A stretch of 64,000 nucleotides of DNA from a bacterium (GCA_028823995.1 JAPPFD010000040.1:1-64000), one strand, 5' to 3'. Numbered from the stretch's first letter, positions 32,328 to 40,977 are shown. The notes: generated from the sequence alone by a model not told the origin. Translations and numbers: made by a program.

Positions 32328-33149
32328 TCAGGCTGGGGTAGCTCTAGGTCGGAATAGGACCACCAGTACGAATATCCCGCTTGCCACCAGGGTCATGGCG
32401 GGACCGGCCGACACATTGAAGTAGTAAGAGACATAGAGGCCGGTGACGGCGGCCGCGGTCCCCAACGCTGCACCCGTCATCATGATCGAGACGAAACGCC
32501 TCGCCAACAGGTACGCTGTGGCGGCGGGCGTCACCAGCATCGCCATGACGAGAACGATGCCGGCCGCCTGAATCCCTATCACGACGACGAGGGCAAGCAT
32601 TACCAGGAAGGCGTGGTCTGCGACGCTGGCGCGTGTGCTGTTGACCTGCGCCCCCAGGGGGTCGAAGCTCGTGAACAGCAGCCAGTGGTGGAAGGCGAAC
32701 AGTCCCAGGATGACCATCACGGTTATCCCGAGGGACACATAGATCCCGGTGGGGGTGATTGCGAGGATCTGTCCCAGCAGCAGGTCTTCGATGTTGACCC
32801 TGATGGTCGATGCGGTTGCCAGCATCACCAGCCCCAGGGCGAACATGGTCGCAAAGAGAATGCCTATGGAGGTATCCGAACTGAGGCCCGCTCGCCTGCT
32901 CAGGGTCCTGACCAGCACGGCGACGGCGACCCCGGTCGGGACGGCCGCTATCGCCGGGTTAACGCCGACTATGTACCCGAACACTATTCCTGGAAGCACG
33001 GCGTGGGCGAGAGCGTCCCCGATGAAGGCAAGGTTTCTGGTGACGGTGTAAGCGCCGACCAGGGGACACATCACGCCCACGAGGATCGAGCCGATCAGGG
33101 CTCTCACCATGAAGCCGTGCTCCAGAGGTACGAGGAGGAAATCTATCAC
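32328..33149 (-). CDS. Zinc/manganese-type ABC transporter permease (ZnuB/AztB-like)
   Basis: A 273-residue permease of the ABC-3 family with eight or nine helices. It begins MIDFLLVPLEHGFMVRALIGSILVGVMCPLVG, then the conserved NLAFIGDALAHAVLPGIV loop, and ends in a hydrophobic helix. It forms the membrane channel for the divalent-metal importer encoded by this three-gene operon (binding protein, ATPase, permease) and is its last gene. Confidence 0.92.
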   Translation of the reverse strand: MIDFLLVPLEHGFMVRALIGSILVGVMCPLVGAYTVTRNLAFIGDALAHAVLPGIVFGYIVGVNPAIAAVPTGVAVAVLVRTLSRRAGLSSDTSIGILFATMFALGLVMLATASTIRVNIEDLLLGQILAITPTGIYVSLGITVMVILGLFAFHHWLLFTSFDPLGAQVNSTRASVADHAFLVMLALVVVIGIQAAGIVLVMAMLVTPAATAYLLARRFVSIMMTGAALGTAAAVTGLYVSYYFNVSAGPAMTLVASGIFVLVVLFRPRATPA

Positions 33150-33158
33150 GTCGAGGTG

Positions 33159-33914
33159 TCAGGACTCCCCGTCGGTGTTGAGGCCCACGCCGTGGGCGCC
33201 GTACATCTGCTCCATGACCTCGGAGGTGAACACCTGCTCGGGAGGGCCGCAGGCGCACACATGGCGGTTCAGGCACAGTACCTGGTCGAAGCGACCGGCC
33301 AGGTTGGTCAGGTCGTGAGTCGCCAGGAGGATGATTCGCCCCTCGTCCCGGAGAGTCCGCAGGACCGCGACGAGGGCCTCCTGGGCTGCGACATCAGCCC
33401 CGCTGAAGGCCTCGTCCAGGAGAAGCACGTTTGCCTCCTGGGCCAGTGCCCTTCCCACGAATACCCGCTGACGTTGACCTCCCGACAGCTCCGTCATCAA
33501 AGCTGAGCGTTGGTCCCAAAGGCCGACCCGGCCCAGGCAGGCGTTGACGATCTCACGATCTCTCTTCCCGGGCCGCTGGAACCATCCCAACCTGCAGCAG
33601 CGGCCCATCATCACGACGTCCATCGCGGTCACGGGAAGCCGCCAGTTGACGCTCTCTCGTTGAGGCACGTATGCCAACCCTCCGCTTCCCTGCCCCGCAC
33701 CCTGCAGGGTCACCTTGCCCTGGCGAACCGGGAGGAGGCCGGCAATCGCATTGAAAAGAGTGCTCTTGCCGGCCCCGTTCGGTCCTACAACGCCCATCAG
33801 GGTCCCCGCTTTCACGTCGAAGGTGACGTTGTTCACGGCCGTGTGGCCGCCGACCTCGACAGTTACCCCCCGAAGCGACATGCTCGCTTCCTGTGAGGTC
33901 GGATCGGCGATCAC
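33159..33914 (-). CDS. Zinc/manganese-type ABC transporter ATPase (ZnuC/AztA-like)
   Basis: A 251-residue ABC ATPase. Walker A GPNGAGKST, signature LSGGQRQRVFVGRAL, Walker B VLLLDEAFSG and the H-loop in LATHDL are all present. Sequence just before the signature (FQRPGKRDREIVNACLGRVGL) is typical of ZnuC/MntA. The start codon overlaps the stop of the fused substrate-binding gene by four bases. Confidence 0.92.
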   Translation of the reverse strand: MIADPTSQEASMSLRGVTVEVGGHTAVNNVTFDVKAGTLMGVVGPNGAGKSTLFNAIAGLLPVRQGKVTLQGAGQGSGGLAYVPQRESVNWRLPVTAMDVVMMGRCCRLGWFQRPGKRDREIVNACLGRVGLWDQRSALMTELSGGQRQRVFVGRALAQEANVLLLDEAFSGADVAAQEALVAVLRTLRDEGRIILLATHDLTNLAGRFDQVLCLNRHVCACGPPEQVFTSEVMEQMYGAHGVGLNTDGES

Positions 33915-36238
33915 TTCAATGCCCCGACAATGCGTTCCACGTTGGCCCGCACCATGGTGAGGTACGTGTCGGCGCCGCTTCCCTCCGCTCCGAGGGAGCC
34001 CGAGTAGAGCTGGACGAGGCTCGCGCCGGTCTCTCTTGCCACGGCTTGCGCCAACTTGTCGCTGACGGTCGTCTCGCCGAACAGTGCAGGCACGCCGTGT
34101 TCCTCTATCACCTCGACCAGACCCGCAATGTGCTCCGCGGAGGGTTCCACATCAGGCGCCAGGGACGGTATCACCAGCCCCACTATCTCAAACCCGTAGG
34201 CCTCTGCGAAGTACGAGAAGGCGTCATGCGACGTGACCAGCAGTCTGCGCTCCGGCGCCACCGCACTTACCTGCTCCAGCGTCCAGGCGTGAAGCTCGTC
34301 AAGCTGCTTGCCGTAGTCTGAGGCGTTCTGGGAGTAGTAGTCGGCGTTCTCGGGGTCTATGGCCGAGAGCCGAGCGGCTATTTCGTTGACCGCGATCTTC
34401 ACCCGGATCGGATCGAACCAGAAGTGAGGATCATAAGTGCCGTGATGGTGGTCGTGATGGTGGTCGTCGCCGTCTTCCTCGTGCTCGTGTTCATCCATGT
34501 GCTCGTCATGGCCTGCATCGGGCGCCCCGCCCGAGTCGGCCACTCCGAGGAACGCCAGGCTCGACGGAGCGCCGCCGACGTGCCATTCCTCTTCGATCTC
34601 CATGTGCGTGAGATGGACCCCGAGGACATGACCGCTGTTCGGGTCGGCGACGTACATCGTGTCGCCGAGGGCGACCATGGCGGGCGAGGGACTCCCGAAC
34701 ACCATCTCGAACGGGTCGACCAACTGCATGGTGTCGATCAACTCGCCGTCGTGGGCGTCGAACCCGCGCAGAACGCCGTCAGCCGCCAGCATGTAGAAGG
34801 TTTCGCCGTCGCTCGAGAACGCAGCCGCAGCACTGGGCTCAGGGAACACCTCGTGCATTTCGCCGTGGCCCACGTCCACCAGCCAGACGCCGCCCTGGAC
34901 ACAGCACTCTCCGCCGGGGAAGAGGGTCGCTTGGCCGAAGAAGTGGTCGCTGTGATGGTGACCGAAGTATTGGCCGATCGCGAACTCACCATATTCACCG
35001 GCCTCCGGTGGATAGGGGATGATCTCACTCTCGTACTCGCCGTCGTGCGCGTGCAAAGAGAGCGTCCCGTCCCAGCAGCCGAAGACGGCGCCGTGCGAGT
35101 TGTGCGATTCGCCGTGCAGGCGATGGCAGGCTCCTGCCTCGAAGACCAGTTCGTTGTCAAACGTACGCACTACAACACCCTCTGGAAGAATGTTCCAGAA
35201 GGTGGGGTTTTCGAGGTACTCAGGATGCGGAACCGTGACGGCGACGTGTCCCTCGGAGATCACCAGAGCCGCGCCATGTTGCGGCCCGGCCTCCAGCACG
35301 ATCGGCTCATAGTCGCCGCCCGAGTCCGCGAGGTCCGCCTCGTTGATCATGACTACGTGACCGCTGGCGTCGGCGAAGATCGTCGTCCAGCCGTGGCTGT
35401 TGACGTAGTGGACCGGCATTTCTTCAACGATCTCCAGCGAGTGCCGGGTGATTGACCGCTGGACGAGGTCGTAGTGATCGCCGTGCTCGACCAGGAAGAC
35501 GCCGCCGTCGAAGACGTGAATCCGGTCGTCGCCGTCCTCCGGCCCGCGGGCGAGGACGATGCCGTAGCGGTGGGTCGGACTGGGGTACACGGTCGCCCCG
35601 GGGGCGGCGACCTCAAAGACTCCGCTGTCAACGTCATCGGTCGTCAGGTCGATAACGGAGAGGTGCGCTTCCATTGCATCCGCAACGAGCAGCCGCCCCG
35701 CGACCATCTCGCCATGGTCCCCGTGATCGTCTTCATCGTCGTGGTCCCCGTGATCGTCGTGATCATCGTGCATGCCTTCCTCGGCGAACTCCATGGGATC
35801 CACCGCCTCACCAAGCGCCACTATCCGGGACTCATCCGCGCTGGCGCTTCGTATCAGATCCTCCAGCCAAAGGGCCTCCAGTTCGAGACCGACAGTGAAC
35901 ACGACATCCGCATCGGCCACCCTGGCGACGTCGCGGGCTCCCGGCTGGTAACTGTGCGGATCGCCACCTGCCGGCAGCATGCCGAAGACCTCCACCCGAT
36001 CTCCACCTACCACGCGAGCCCAGTCAGCCACGAAGTTGGTGGTGGCCACCACCTGGATCGGCGGCCCCGAGGGCGCGGCGCTCTCCTCGGTGGCCGTTGG
36101 CTGCGGTTCTTGCGTTGCCTGGGTGTCCTGGTCATCTCCACAGGCGCCCAGGAAAGCCATCGAGAGTATGACAAGGCCTACAGTTAACGTCCGGGCCAGA
36201 CGTCCAAAGCTTGTATTGCGACCTGGCATGGTCAACAT
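33911..36238 (-). CDS. Zinc-type substrate-binding lipoprotein with inserted AztD-like beta-propeller
   Basis: A 775-residue lipoprotein, more than twice the usual 300 of ZnuA/AztC. Signal peptide with lipobox FLGAC (Cys33). The binding-protein fold is split: lobe 1 is residues about 61-155 with His95 (GGDPHSYQP), lobe 2 about 601-775 with His605 (DPHFWFDP), His671 (TSHDAF) and Asp757, a His-His-His-Asp metal site like AztC. Between them, where ZnuA has its His-rich mobile loop, lie two His/Asp-rich segments (157-175 and 577-599) bracketing a repeat-rich domain (about 178-567) with beta-propeller blades and cysteines at 371, 388, 445 and 446, resembling the zinc metallochaperone AztD. In Paracoccus these are separate proteins of aztABCD; here the chaperone appears embedded in its receiver. 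A palindromic operator lies 33 bases upstream. Confidence 0.88.
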   Translation of the reverse strand: MLTMPGRNTSFGRLARTLTVGLVILSMAFLGACGDDQDTQATQEPQPTATEESAAPSGPPIQVVATTNFVADWARVVGGDRVEVFGMLPAGGDPHSYQPGARDVARVADADVVFTVGLELEALWLEDLIRSASADESRIVALGEAVDPMEFAEEGMHDDHDDHGDHDDEDDHGDHGEMVAGRLLVADAMEAHLSVIDLTTDDVDSGVFEVAAPGATVYPSPTHRYGIVLARGPEDGDDRIHVFDGGVFLVEHGDHYDLVQRSITRHSLEIVEEMPVHYVNSHGWTTIFADASGHVVMINEADLADSGGDYEPIVLEAGPQHGAALVISEGHVAVTVPHPEYLENPTFWNILPEGVVVRTFDNELVFEAGACHRLHGESHNSHGAVFGCWDGTLSLHAHDGEYESEIIPYPPEAGEYGEFAIGQYFGHHHSDHFFGQATLFPGGECCVQGGVWLVDVGHGEMHEVFPEPSAAAAFSSDGETFYMLAADGVLRGFDAHDGELIDTMQLVDPFEMVFGSPSPAMVALGDTMYVADPNSGHVLGVHLTHMEIEEEWHVGGAPSSLAFLGVADSGGAPDAGHDEHMDEHEHEEDGDDHHHDHHHGTYDPHFWFDPIRVKIAVNEIAARLSAIDPENADYYSQNASDYGKQLDELHAWTLEQVSAVAPERRLLVTSHDAFSYFAEAYGFEIVGLVIPSLAPDVEPSAEHIAGLVEVIEEHGVPALFGETTVSDKLAQAVARETGASLVQLYSGSLGAEGSGADTYLTMVRANVERIVGALK

Positions 36239-36270: not shown

Positions 36271-36303
36271 CTAAAGTGATAATGATAATCATTATCACTT
36301 TAG
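36271..36303. promoter_or_regulatory. Fur/Zur-family operator, 33-bp palindrome
   Basis: A palindrome perfect except for its central base spans 36271-36303. Its core (36278-36296) is GATAATGATAATCATTATC, identical to the classical 19-bp Fur box consensus. It sits 33 bases before the zinc-type operon start, on its promoter side. In actinobacteria Fur-family sites of this form usually belong to Zur. A second copy lies at 40951. Confidence 0.85.
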
Positions 36304-36324: not shown

Positions 36325-37170
36325 TTACGCCGGCTTCGAACGGGAGCGGCTCCGGAACCAGAACAGGGCCCGCCCCCCTGCCCGCGCTACGCGTTCAACT
36401 GTCACCCCAAACACGGGTTCCAGCACCTGAGGCGTGAGGACCGTCTCCACCGGCCCGGCCGCCTGGATCCGGCCGCCCTTCAGCACCACGATGTAATCGC
36501 AGTACTCCGCCGCCAGATTCACGTCATGGATCGATATCAGGGTGGTCGCGCCAACGCCGCGGACGAGATCGAGCACTTCGAACTGGTAGCGGATGTCGAG
36601 GTGATTGGTGGGCTCGTCGAGGATCAGGACTCCGGCTTCCTGGACGAGTGCCCGCGCAATAAGCGCCCGTTGCTTCTCTCCCCCGGACAAAGTCGCGAAC
36701 GACCGTGTCGCCAGCGCCGAAATGTCGACGTGAGCGAGGGCGTCGTCCACGCGTTGGCGGTCGTCGGCGGACTCCCTGGCGAACGCCGCCTGGTATGGGC
36801 TGCGTCCCATCGCAACCACTTCCCGCACGGTGAACTCAAAGTCGGTCCTCGGTTCCTGCACCACGACGGAGATGCGTCGAGCGGCCTCGAGCGGATGCAA
36901 CTCCCAGAGGTCGTCCCCACCTACCAGCACGTGCCCGAGTCGGGGGCGCAACATGCGATACGCGGCGCGCAGCAACGTGGTCTTGCCGCTGCCGTTGGGC
37001 CCGACGATGCCCACAACCCGGCCGGCGTCGACCTCCAGGCTGACCTGGGAGCAGATCTCGACCGAGCCCACGGCCACCGTCACACCGGACAGCGTCAGCG
37101 TTAGTGGGACAGGGCTGTCACCGGCGGGGGATGGCTTCGAAAACCCGGTTTCCGCGTGGTCACCGGGCAT
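36325..37170 (-). CDS. Iron-siderophore-type ABC ATPase (FecE/FepC-like)
   Basis: A 281-residue ABC ATPase with Walker A GPNGSGKTT, signature LSGGEKQRALIARAL, Walker B VLILDEPTNHLD and H-loop SIHDVN. The TNHLDIRYQFEVLDLV segment is typical of the FecCDE/BtuD group. It overlaps the permease gene upstream by 11 bases and ends the operon of four genes that begins at 40855. Substrates of this group include ferric siderophores, haem, cobalamin and other metallophores. Confidence 0.9.
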   Translation of the reverse strand: MPGDHAETGFSKPSPAGDSPVPLTLTLSGVTVAVGSVEICSQVSLEVDAGRVVGIVGPNGSGKTTLLRAAYRMLRPRLGHVLVGGDDLWELHPLEAARRISVVVQEPRTDFEFTVREVVAMGRSPYQAAFARESADDRQRVDDALAHVDISALATRSFATLSGGEKQRALIARALVQEAGVLILDEPTNHLDIRYQFEVLDLVRGVGATTLISIHDVNLAAEYCDYIVVLKGGRIQAAGPVETVLTPQVLEPVFGVTVERVARAGGRALFWFRSRSRSKPA

Positions 37171-38278
37171 GTTCTGATCCTCGCAGCCGGGAGCGGAGGA
37201 GCAGGGCGAACACCGGCGCGCCGACCAGCGCGGTGATCACCCCGATCGGCAGCTCGCGTGGCTGGATCACCAGCCGCGCCAGCACGTCCGACCAGAGTAG
37301 GAAGAGGGCCCCGACCAGGGCCGCCAGGGGAAGGACCCGGCGATGATCGGAGCCCACCACCATTCGCGCGGCGTGAGGTATCACCAACCCCACAAACCCG
37401 ACCCCACCGGCCAAGGCCACGGAGGTGCCAGTGAGAAGCGCGACCACTACGAAAAGGACGCGCCGGAGCCGATTGGGCGGCACCCCCATGCTGGTGGCGG
37501 TCTCGTCGCCGAAGAGGAGCAGGTTCAGTGCCCGTGCTTGAGAAAGGAGATAGACGAGACCGGCAACCAGGAGGATGGTCGGCAGCCCGAGTTGGTCCCA
37601 CCGCGCTCCGCCCAGGGCGCCGAGCATCCAGAAGAGCGCCACGCGTGCCGTCTGACTCTGCTCGCTCATGAAAATGAGCATGCTGGTCAAGGCCGAGAAG
37701 AGAAAGCCAACCGCGATCCCGGCCAGCACCAGGCGCAATGGACTGAGGCCACCCCACGAGTTCGCCAGCAGGAACGCCAGCCCGTAGCCGATGGCGCCAC
37801 CCGCGAACGCGGCGACCGGAAGCGTGTAGATCCCCGCAAACGTCCACCCGAGCACCATGACGCTAACGGCGCCGGCAGCTGCGCTGGCGGTGCCACCGAG
37901 GATCGTCGGGTCGGCCAGGGGATTCCGCACCATTGCCTGGAGCACCGTCCCGACCACGGCGAGCGCCGCCCCGACCAGCACGGCGAGGAGGGCCCGCGGG
38001 AGACGGACGTGCCACACTATCCGCTCATGCGCGTCCGGCCACTCGGCCGACACCAGGTCCGGCCAGAACTGGTGGATCCCGATCTGCCAGGCTGTCACGG
38101 GGGAGATGTCAGCCGGCCCTAGGGTCACCGCCAGCAGGATCGAGACGGCCAGGACCAGACAGAGACCCCCCAACACCGCCGCGAAGCCGAGCCCTGCTAT
38201 CCCGGGAGAACCCTCGCCGACGGCCGAGGAACGTCTCGGGCCGGCACGGATCAGCCTTCTCATCCAGGATTGGCTCAT
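37160..38278 (-). CDS. Iron-siderophore-type ABC permease (FecCD family)
   Basis: A 372-residue permease with about ten helices. The FecCD signatures are clear: RLPRALLAVLVGAALAVVGTVLQAMVRNPLADPTILGG and ALAGGVGFVGLVIPHAARMVVGSDHR near the end. I place the start at 38278 (MSQSWMRRL), overlapping the MATE stop in an ATGA; the open frame before it is antisense-like GC-rich sequence that lies inside the MATE gene. Only one permease gene is present, so it probably acts as a homodimer. Confidence 0.92.
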   Translation of the reverse strand: MSQSWMRRLIRAGPRRSSAVGEGSPGIAGLGFAAVLGGLCLVLAVSILLAVTLGPADISPVTAWQIGIHQFWPDLVSAEWPDAHERIVWHVRLPRALLAVLVGAALAVVGTVLQAMVRNPLADPTILGGTASAAAGAVSVMVLGWTFAGIYTLPVAAFAGGAIGYGLAFLLANSWGGLSPLRLVLAGIAVGFLFSALTSMLIFMSEQSQTARVALFWMLGALGGARWDQLGLPTILLVAGLVYLLSQARALNLLLFGDETATSMGVPPNRLRRVLFVVVALLTGTSVALAGGVGFVGLVIPHAARMVVGSDHRRVLPLAALVGALFLLWSDVLARLVIQPRELPIGVITALVGAPVFALLLRSRLRGSEHAR

Positions 38279-39624
38279 ACTTCCGCCGTCCGCCAGGTTC
38301 CCTGCCGGTAGCGCCACCAGGTCCCGGCGGTCCGCGCCGCGAAGAAGGCGATCCCGGCGACGTAGACGCCGCCGAGCCCCCAACCGACCGCCACGGCCAG
38401 CAGCCACGCCAGGGGCACCATGACCAGGTAGCTGGAAGCCGTGGATGCGTAGAACACCCACTTGGAGTCGCCGGCGGCGCGCAACACTGCGGCAAGCACC
38501 ATGCTTGAAGCCATGAGCGGCACCTGCATAGCCAGAAAGGGGAGGACGCTCCCGGCCTGCGTTACGACTTCTCCGTCAGGGGTTAGCAAGCCCAGGATCG
38601 GGGACGGCGCGATGAGAACCGGCGCCAGGGCGATGGCCGGAAGCGCGGTCATCAGCAATAGCCCGGCCCGCTCGATCAGGGCCACTGTCCGCTCGTCGCG
38701 GTTGCCAAGGCTCTGCCCGACGAGAATGGACACGCCGGTCGAGAGCGCCCAGATAATCGTCCACAGGACCTGCTGCAATTTGGTCACGACCTGCATGCCG
38801 GCTACGACCTCGGTGCCGAGCGAGGCGACGATCCCGATTACGAGGACGTTGTTGGCATAGCCCAGGAAGAGCATCACCGTCTCGGGCCAGCCGATCGACC
38901 AGAGTCGGGGAAGCACTTCCCGGGACTGGCTCAGGTGTTCGCCGCGGAACAACTGGTATCTGCTCCGGAACCGGCTCCAGCCAAACCGGCCCATGTAGAC
39001 GCATCCCACGGCCACGGCGATCACTGTGCCGACTCCGGCACCGAGGAGACCCCAGCCGACCACGAAGATCAGGATGTAGTTGAGCGGAATGTTGATCACA
39101 TTGACCAGCAACGTCATTCGCATCGCCACCTTTGTCTCTCCCACGCCCGCGTAGACGGCTCGGAACATGGCCGTGGCGGCTGCCATGGGTGCGGCGAAGG
39201 CGAGCGCCCGGAGGTACGGCACGCCCTCTGTTTGCACGGCCTCGCTGAGCCCGAAAGCGTCGAGGAGCGGCCCCGCTCCGATGCTCAGGACGAGGAGGAC
39301 CACGAAACCGGCGCCGACGCCGACCAGCATCGACACGTCCAGCAACTGTCCAACGGCGGCCGGACGTCTCTCGCCGTACCGGCGGGCCGCGATTACCTGC
39401 GCGGCGGTCGCCCATCCGCCGAACAGCATGCTTGCGGCGATGTTCACGGACGAGGCGACGGCCGCTGCGGCGAGCGCCTGGGTGGAGACGCGGCTGATCA
39501 TTGCGGTGTCGACGATCCCGAGCACGATCTGAGAGAGGTTTGAGACGATGATCGGGGAACTCAAGGTAGCCACGCTCTTCAGCGCGCCCCGGAGGGTTGG
39601 CGTCACAGGGCTGGCAGCTTCCAT
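38275..39624 (-). CDS. MATE family efflux transporter
   Basis: A 449-residue multidrug-and-toxic-compound-extrusion protein with about twelve helices in two MatE halves. It starts SPIIVSNLSQIVLGIVDTAMISRV, the normal first half, and the second half begins near WPETVMLFLGYANNVLVIG. MATE proteins export organic compounds using sodium or proton gradients. Its place inside a siderophore-type importer operon (spacing 67 bases to the binding protein, ATGA overlap with the permease) suggests it exports the same metallophore or a related toxic compound, but no biosynthesis gene is visible here. Confidence 0.88.
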   Translation of the reverse strand: MEAASPVTPTLRGALKSVATLSSPIIVSNLSQIVLGIVDTAMISRVSTQALAAAAVASSVNIAASMLFGGWATAAQVIAARRYGERRPAAVGQLLDVSMLVGVGAGFVVLLVLSIGAGPLLDAFGLSEAVQTEGVPYLRALAFAAPMAAATAMFRAVYAGVGETKVAMRMTLLVNVINIPLNYILIFVVGWGLLGAGVGTVIAVAVGCVYMGRFGWSRFRSRYQLFRGEHLSQSREVLPRLWSIGWPETVMLFLGYANNVLVIGIVASLGTEVVAGMQVVTKLQQVLWTIIWALSTGVSILVGQSLGNRDERTVALIERAGLLLMTALPAIALAPVLIAPSPILGLLTPDGEVVTQAGSVLPFLAMQVPLMASSMVLAAVLRAAGDSKWVFYASTASSYLVMVPLAWLLAVAVGWGLGGVYVAGIAFFAARTAGTWWRYRQGTWRTAEV

Positions 39625-39691
39625 GAGGGTGGTGAGTGCGAAGCCGCCGGGATGAGTGGGGTCTCAGCCCGGCGGCGACGCTTGCCTTCGA

Positions 39692-40855
39692 TTAGCGAGA
39701 GGCGTTCACACCGCGCACCGCGGTCGCCACCTTGATGAGGCCATCGAGGTTCTGCGGTCCGGGCACGCTCTGGAGGAACGTCAGAGTCATGTAGTGGCCG
39801 TTCACGACCGCTGACATTCCTGACAGGGCCGGGTCGGACTCCAGAAACGCCCGGTTAGCTGCGGGGCCGCCGAATCCGTAGTCGACGAGGATGATCAACT
39901 CCGGATCGCCCTCGATGACGGCTTCCCACTCCACGGTACCCCACGTGCCGCTGACGTCCGAGAAGATGTTCATCCCGCCGGCGCGGTTGATTATGTCAGA
40001 CATCACTGAACCGGAGAGCGCCGTGAATGGGGCCTCTTGACCCGAGTCGAAGTAGAAGACCCGGACCTGCTCACCCTCCGGGGTAGCCTCGGCGACCTCC
40101 GCGATTTGCTGCTCCCAGGAGGCGATTAGTTCGTCGGCGCGGTCCTCGACTTTGAATATCTCCCCCACAGCGTGAACGTCCGCAAACATCACCTCGAGCG
40201 TTACGTTGCCGGAGAAGTCGGGGCAGGCCTCCGTGAAAGAAAAGCTGTGCACAGAAGCGTCACGCAGGTTGTGTGCGGTGAGACCGCCGCTCTCGTTGAA
40301 GCCGTAGCTGAACACCAGATCCGGCGCGGGGGCGAGGACCGCTTCCAGGGAGGGATACGGGAAGCTGCCGCCCAGGCGTTCGACCAGCGCGGCACGAGCT
40401 TGGTGCTGGGGCTGGAGCCGGTCAGGCGTGCCGCCGAAGTAACCGATGACATTGTCCTGTAAACCGAGCGCCATCAGCACCTCCAATGCGCTCGTATCTG
40501 TAGCCACCACCCGCTGGGGGACCGCATCGTAGACGGTCTCCACGCCGCAGTTGTCGATCGTTACGCCGGTCGGCGGGGGAGCCGTGGTGGTGGTTGTGGG
40601 ACTTTGCGTGGTCGTTGTCGTTGCTTGTGTGGTGGTGGTTGTGGGACTTTGCGTGGTTGTCGTCGTTGCTTGTGTGGTGGTGGTTGTGGGACTCTGTGTC
40701 GTCTCGGTCGCCGCCGTGGTCGTTGCCTCGGTGGGAGCCGGGGTTGCGGCCGGTTCCTCTGCATCCGAGCACGCGGCGGCAAAGAGCGCGGCCATCAGGG
40801 CCAACGCTCCAAAGAGCGCTAGCCGTGTAAGGTTGATTCGGCCCGATCTGTTCAT
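39692..40855 (-). CDS. Iron-siderophore-type ABC substrate-binding lipoprotein (FepB/BtuF-like)
   Basis: A 387-residue lipoprotein. The signal peptide ends in FAAAC (Cys29). A long Thr/Gln/Ser/Pro linker follows (about 34-95), encoded by a 45-bp tandem repeat. The binding domain starts VTIDNCGVETVYDAVPQRVVATDTSALEVLMALGL, the class-A PeripBP_2 opening, and has PDLVFSYGFN later. It captures a metallophore complex or related ligand. A palindrome identical to the zinc-operon operator lies about 96 bases upstream, so it and the genes after it belong to the same regulon. Confidence 0.9.
   Translation of the reverse strand: MNRSGRINLTRLALFGALALMAALFAAACSDAEEPAATPAPTEATTTAATETTQSPTTTTTQATTTTTQSPTTTTTQATTTTTQSPTTTTTAPPPTGVTIDNCGVETVYDAVPQRVVATDTSALEVLMALGLQDNVIGYFGGTPDRLQPQHQARAALVERLGGSFPYPSLEAVLAPAPDLVFSYGFNESGGLTAHNLRDASVHSFSFTEACPDFSGNVTLEVMFADVHAVGEIFKVEDRADELIASWEQQIAEVAEATPEGEQVRVFYFDSGQEAPFTALSGSVMSDIINRAGGMNIFSDVSGTWGTVEWEAVIEGDPELIILVDYGFGGPAANRAFLESDPALSGMSAVVNGHYMTLTFLQSVPGPQNLDGLIKVATAVRGVNASR
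40584..40695. repeat. 45-bp tandem repeat (about 2.5 copies) in a lipoprotein linker
   Basis: GTGGTGGTGGTTGTGGGACT recurs at 40584, 40629 and 40674, period 45. On the coding (minus) strand it encodes a 15-residue Thr/Gln/Ser/Pro repeat in the linker of the siderophore-type binding protein. Copy number may vary between strains. Confidence 0.85.
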
Positions 40856-40950: not shown

Positions 40951-40977
40951 AAGTGATAATGATAATCATTATCACTT
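40951..40977. promoter_or_regulatory. Second Fur/Zur-family operator
   Basis: A 27-bp palindrome (AAGTGATAAT ... ATTATCACTT), identical across the central 27 bases to the operator at 36271, lies 96 bases before the siderophore-type operon. The repeat of the same site ties the two operons to one repressor. Confidence 0.85.

Follow-up and report, generated by a model that had tools for sequence, protein, structure and literature searches.

Complexes between zinc donors and zinc receivers are transient, and direct protein-to-protein transfer of the metal is for that reason poorly understood. The closest described system to the locus reported here is aztABCD of Paracoccus denitrificans (PDB 5W56/5W57, 6CK1, 6CMK), in which the receptor AztC and the donor AztD are separate and meet only transiently. 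Previous work has shown that AztD transfers zinc to AztC from its site 2 only, with site 1 giving none (PMC6689063), and that site 2 sits on an extension that the N- and C-terminal strands form together with a hairpin of blade 2 (PMC6689063, PMC7463823). The flexible loop of AztC is required for receipt of zinc from AztD, and in the favoured docking model this loop enters the propeller, leaving ~10 Å between site 2 and the receptor site (PMC6689063, PMC7463823). Knockout of aztD in Paracoccus had little growth phenotype (PMC6689063). In the ZnuA/ZinT pair of Gram-negatives, an accessory zinc protein is likewise proposed to pass zinc via the receptor's His-rich loop, but the two are separate proteins and ZinT is unrelated to AztD. 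Streptococcal AdcA is a single lipoprotein that does unite a zinc receptor with an accessory domain that binds zinc, and a His-rich loop lies at the interface; however, its ZnuA-like and C-terminal ZinT parts are joined end-to-end by an 11-residue linker, without a propeller or a loop insertion (PMC7858048). Finally, the actinobacterial anchored-repeat proteins of TIGR03772 are cluster A-I substrate-binding proteins (SBPs) with an extra domain at this same loop, the lobes lying at profile positions 2-85 and 310-485. That insert consists of choice-of-anchor M / TIGR03769 surface repeats rather than AztD and lacks zinc-donor ligands; the family names imply a surface-anchoring role.

We analysed a 64,000-nt stretch of bacterial DNA (hereafter the window) and found a gene in which the donor lies inside the receptor. 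The gene (33911-36238, minus strand, as are all features of the protein given below) is a single unbroken frame of 775 codons from ATG to stop. Its 775-aa product begins with a signal sequence and an LGAC lipobox with lipidated Cys33 (36140-36238), of which Ala32-Cys33 is nearly invariant among fused proteins. The first SBP lobe (residues 61-155; 35774-36058) bears the metal ligand His95 and is followed by a His/Asp-rich linker (residues 152-180; 35699-35785) that forms the first half of the receptor loop. After the inserted AztD-type domain (residues ~181-565; 34544-35698), the second half of the loop follows as another His/Asp-rich linker (residues 566-602; 34433-34543), and the chain ends with lobe 2 (residues 603-775; 33914-34432), bearing His605, His671, and Asp757. 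Pfam ZnuA (PF01297) matches in two stretches flanking the insert, the second from residue 581, with a total of 287.8 bits (E 1e-85; cut-off 29). Alignment with Mn/Zn SBPs of the PDB and with homologues showed that all four receptor ligands, three His and one Asp, are intact. Lobe 1 ends at ~155 and the motif DPHFW stands at 603; the insert lies between them, and 452 aa separate the lobe matches, as against 5-215 aa, mostly <60, in unfused homologues. In the unfused orthologue G004 the His/Asp-rich loop runs unbroken for 57 residues, whereas in the window protein it consists of 29 residues, the propeller, and a further 37 residues. The product is thus one lipoprotein, a zinc-binding receptor of cluster A-I (ZnuA/AztC) in which a complete domain of AztD type interrupts the His-rich loop. 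This had been the claim of a first-pass annotation made from the sequence alone; the split fold, the single polypeptide, the four ligands, and the two His/Asp-rich segments all held.

Relative to aztABCD, the same two families, ligands, and operon logic (ATPase, permease, receptor, and zinc control) are found, but canonical AztD is a separate secreted or lipoprotein polypeptide, whereas the propeller of the window is a domain within the SBP, placed in the receptor loop. The cut-offs of curated models of the known arrangements were not reached. The fused protein scored 264.7 bits against the AztC equivalog NF040870 (cut-off 350), in part because that model lacks the insert; 137.1 bits against AdcA NF033605 (cut-off 700), through the lobes only, with no C-terminal ZinT after lobe 2; and 176.2 bits against TIGR03772 (cut-off 350.45), again through the lobes only. 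AztC/AztD as two proteins, AdcA as an end-to-end fusion, and the TIGR03772 loop insertion were already known; what appears new is the insertion of AztD into the receptor loop. No description of an SBP-AztD fusion was found in the open-access literature searched, in line with the first-pass annotation, which knew of no described example but made no search.

The identity of the insert rests on several comparisons. NCBIfam AztD (NF038015) matched residues 185-562 over profile positions 1-352 of 356 (E 1e-31), which confirmed by profile search the earlier assignment of residues 178-567 as AztD-like. The score of 109.8 bits does not reach the curated cut-off of 400, and the inserted propeller therefore represents a divergent AztD subclade. 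The AztD structures 6cmk and 6ck1 align to the segment, a profile built from ten fused-type propellers found 6cmk at 3.5e-25, and hhalign of the fused-type profile against canonical actinobacterial AztDs gave a probability of 99.7% (E 3e-26). Alignment to 6cmk located zinc site 2 in the motif HGDHYD (residues 252-257; 35468-35485; ligands His252, His255, and Asp257) and the site 1 ligands at His277 (35408-35410), His321 (35276-35278), and His375 (35114-35116), equivalent to His124, His167, and His218 of AztD. The pair Cys371/Cys388 (35075-35128) corresponds to the disulfide Cys214/Cys231. All site 1 ligands, the His/His/Asp of site 2, and the disulfide pair are kept in each of the 12 full-length fusions. 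The fourth site 2 ligand of AztD, C-terminal His408, is conserved in 68% of AztDs and has no unique counterpart in the fused protein. The linker that follows is His-rich, and only one of its His residues could take over the role of His408, which is not established. AlphaFold, the structure prediction that had been proposed, returned low confidence both for the full protein and for the propeller alone (propeller pLDDT ~25-40) because the alignment is shallow. The eight-bladed propeller fold is consequently inferred from homology to the solved AztD structures.

A fusion of this kind could be an artefact in which a chimeric contig or a frameshift merges two adjacent genes. In favour of this explanation, assemblers break at His-codon repeats like those beside the insert, and the second ZnuA gene of the window's genome is interrupted in just such repeats at contig ends (end of G000:C13, L006; start of C8, L005). 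Against it, the frame is open throughout, a genome search found no second, separate AztD or propeller gene in the window's genome, and the entire frame is under purifying selection, with dN/dS of about 0.09-0.25 in the propeller (e.g., dN 0.017 and dS 0.190 between G058 and G070). Furthermore, the architecture is present in 13 metagenome-assembled genomes (MAGs) of two phyla (Acidimicrobiia, Chloroflexota), with the whole frame in 12 of them, among which G005 (90%) and G058 (85%) hold full-length counterparts of the window gene. Since independent MAGs of two phyla show the same architecture, an artefact is all but excluded, and neither of the outcomes that the first-pass annotation had named as refuting its claim, namely the lack of an AztD match or a frameshift or assembly join, proved true. 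Eight fused genes occurred among 138 genomes of the window's order, one of which (G073) is truncated by a contig end; no further ones were found in samples of 395 genomes of the class and 396 of the phylum. Named records with fused genes are Acidimicrobiia and unclassified 'bacterium' MAGs. From our reading of the isolate prefixes, which fit the hosts Rhopaloeides, Coscinoderma, and Ircinia (PMC8163846), the fusion-bearing MAGs would appear to come from marine sponges.

In the window, the fused gene is followed by an ABC ATPase gene (AztA/MntA-like; 33159-33914, minus strand), which starts at a GTG overlapping the stop codon of the SBP gene, and then by an ABC-3 family permease gene (AztB-like; 32328-33149, minus strand), both assigned by profile matches. 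The order SBP-ATPase-permease is conserved in G002, G003, G004, G005, and G058. A palindrome resembling a Zur/Fur box, TGATAATGATTATCATTATCA (36277-36297), ends 39 bp upstream of the ATG, where none was expected in shuffles. Five perfect copies occur genome-wide and none of the reversed control. A degenerate copy with three mismatches lies upstream of the second ZnuA gene (contig C13), and four Fur-family genes are present in the genome. We read the palindrome as a Zur box and regard the importer as likely to be Zur-regulated, although no binding data exist. The region upstream of the second ZnuA gene contains two degenerate Zur-like boxes, at C13:32978 and about 20 bp beyond. Other genomes differ in context. 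In G753 the fused gene (L090, 3412-5298, plus strand) is preceded by genes for an FtsX-type permease and an ABC ATPase, not by a ZnuBC pair; in G811 the opposite strand carries an ABC-3 permease gene close by; and in G797 it is surrounded by unrelated genes. Given the absence of a ZnuBC pair in G753 and the unrelated neighbours in G797, the fused protein is not necessarily a dedicated receptor everywhere.

Two further observations went beyond the first-pass annotation, namely the existence of empty versions of the receptor and the repeated occurrence of the insertion in different receptor backbones. Three genomes of the window's genus (G002, G003, and G004) have the same receptor, with lobes 84-98% identical and the operon unchanged, but lack the insert. 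Conversely, the fused proteins of two Chloroflexota MAGs (L090 and L092) carry, in the same loop, a propeller 75-76% identical to that of the window in protein and 79-80% in DNA, whereas their receptor lobes are only 29-43% identical, and about 50% in DNA. Fused genes were also located in three more Chloroflexota relatives of G753, with a backbone akin to the window's type in G797 and of a third type in G811 and G844. Thus, across differing backbones, lobes are 29-43% and propellers 75-80% identical, and the insert occupies the same loop in every case. The same propeller clade includes a standalone lipoprotein (L091, G754; 77% identical), whose N-terminal tail is rich in His and Asp and whose C-terminus ends in His; its gene adjoins a cation-efflux gene. 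In the receptor-lobe tree a single clade of fused genes is rejected (AU p 3e-60), and a minimum of five state changes is required. In the propeller tree the fused copies fall in one subclade (100/100) with standalone copies interspersed, and a single origin is rejected (AU p 2e-14). Long branches are present. A single ancestral fusion passed on vertically is therefore rejected, but one fusion followed by replacement of the lobes through recombination remains possible. Because of the long branches and because lobe replacement is not excluded, we claim no exact number of separate joinings, but at least two and probably three, involving at least two receptor backbones and probably three.

Traces of exchange were evident at the module boundaries. 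Between the window and G005, dS was 0.052 in the lobes, 0.055 in the permease, and 0.124 in the ATPase, as compared to 0.243 in the propeller (lobes vs. propeller, Fisher p 7e-7), which shows that the propeller has moved independently of the lobes. Between the window and G058, divergence was about equal in lobes and propeller. G753 harbours both a fused gene and an unfused paralogue (L107), the latter in an operon with an ATPase and a permease. The fused and unfused receptors are 100% identical in lobe 2 and 76% in lobe 1 at the protein level; in DNA, L090 compared to the unfused L107/L131 is 98.8% identical in lobe 2 and only 75.7% in lobe 1. This step indicates a crossover within the loop. 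The identity steps between modules are located in His/Asp-codon repeats, and we infer that such repeats of the receptor loop and of the AztD tails act as recombination junctions. One alternative built on these data is that the fusion is merely a matter of packaging, a short route to secreting and lipid-anchoring AztD in equimolar amount with the receptor, where the loop position has no kinetic benefit and was favoured by easy recombination at His-codon repeats. The His/Asp-rich tails of the standalone L091 and the module boundaries inside repeats (both in L090 and its unfused paralogue and in the window and G005, dS 0.24 vs. 0.05) speak for it. However, packaging accounts for the insertion site but not for retention of all donor ligands in several lineages, and we consider it unlikely; moreover, it would leave a relay unexcluded.

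Our preferred reading is that the fused protein serves a zinc importer of aztABC type, likely under Zur control, as a receptor that carries an AztD-type donor in its own capture loop and works as an intramolecular relay. We favour a relay because AztD donates only from the terminal-strand site 2 and because transfer needs the very AztC loop that is interrupted here; since the termini of the propeller are joined to the receptor loop, site 2 is attached to that same loop. In this model, both His/Asp-rich linkers of the surface-tethered lipoprotein, as well as sites 1 and 2 of its propeller, would gather zinc. Formed by terminal strands continuous with the loop, site 2 would then present zinc to the receptor cleft (His95, His605, His671, and Asp757), which would close and dock on the permease. 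Transfer would be first-order inside one polypeptide, replacing a slow bimolecular encounter, and the fusion would yield donor and receiver at 1:1. The ligands kept in 12 of 12 fusions, the intact receptor ligands, the adjacent ATPase and permease, the palindrome, the purifying selection, the use of the same loop in different backbones, and the lack of a separate AztD in the genome all support this model. Nevertheless, while the architecture, ligand conservation, operon, and recurrent insertion are shown, the relay is not; metal binding and transfer data are lacking for any fused protein, and metal identity and direct transfer are inferred. As when first proposed from the sequence, the relay is grounded in the biochemistry of AztC/AztD (PMC6689063, PMC7463823) and not of this protein, and we would put its probability at roughly 0.6.

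The main rival to the relay is that the propeller serves as a zinc buffer or scavenging antenna, which together with the linkers raises local zinc near the membrane while the cleft loads by ordinary release and rebinding. This is possible. The zinc sites of AztD are labile and site 1 makes no transfer to AztC (PMC6689063), the His/Asp-rich segments are long and variable, and the fused copy of G753 lies apart from the znuABC-like operon, which holds the unfused paralogue, as would suit a reservoir. Against the relay itself, the low AlphaFold confidence for the propeller means that no relative orientation of propeller and lobes was obtained, and the length and flexibility of the linkers (29 and 37 aa) permit site 2 to come near the cleft but do not enforce it. 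The unestablished counterpart of His408, the gene contexts in G753 and G797, and the weak growth phenotype of the Paracoccus aztD knockout (PMC6689063) also count against it. Arguing against a buffer, the ligands of site 2 do not vary, and the insert consistently occupies the loop needed for associative transfer and not a terminus. A bolder reading, which we hold as apt to prove wrong as right, is that recombination at His/Asp-codon repeats keeps a propeller module with zinc-donor function in circulation among bacterial sponge symbionts of two phyla. The module would have been repeatedly plugged into the capture loops of different zinc receptors, making self-loading receptors in which site 2 passes zinc directly within the same molecule.

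Donor and receiver have here been joined by evolution at a loop already marked as essential by biochemistry, and in more than one receptor backbone. The recurrent fusion lends independent support to the docking model of AztC and AztD and suggests that coupling of donor and receiver is useful. With both partners in a single chain, the fused protein is also a stable subject for crystallographic and kinetic work on zinc transfer, with natural controls in the empty receptors of sister genomes and of the same genome (G753) and in standalone donors of the L091 type.

Several related genes were noted during the searches. A 512-aa frame of the TIGR03772 type (L094, G619), with choice-of-anchor M in the same SBP loop, is a separate case of insertion. 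An 838-aa frame with AztD in G601 was considered as a further fusion and rejected, as it has no SBP lobes, and fusion was not demonstrated for any of the long actinobacterial frames with weak AztD matches. G002, whose receptor is unfused, contains a standalone AztD-like gene (C17:33335-34480; L043, L058) that is 32-35% identical to the window propeller; the match includes an in-frame TAA, so the gene is perhaps decayed or starts further downstream. Two frames of 560-562 aa (L051 and L059, in G104 and G107) belong to a divergent AztD subclade in which a Cys-rich segment (CWIDCGDDCGTQTSC) is inserted in the propeller. Directly upstream of the fused gene, the region 36325-40855 (minus strand) encodes a Fec/cobalamin-type ABC importer (ATPase, 36325-37170; permease, 37160-38461; SBP, 39692-40855), with a MATE transporter gene (38275-39624, minus strand) lying within it and an identical Zur-box-like palindrome at its head (40954-40974). 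Conceivably, this importer takes up a zinc-binding small molecule. A FecB-type lipoprotein SBP encoded elsewhere in the genome (L139, G000:C25, 147-1457, minus strand) may possibly be a further zinc or metallophore uptake protein; it has a His/Asp-rich N-terminal tail of ~90 residues, and its gene has a copy of the palindrome upstream and is divergent from a CydD-like ABC exporter gene.
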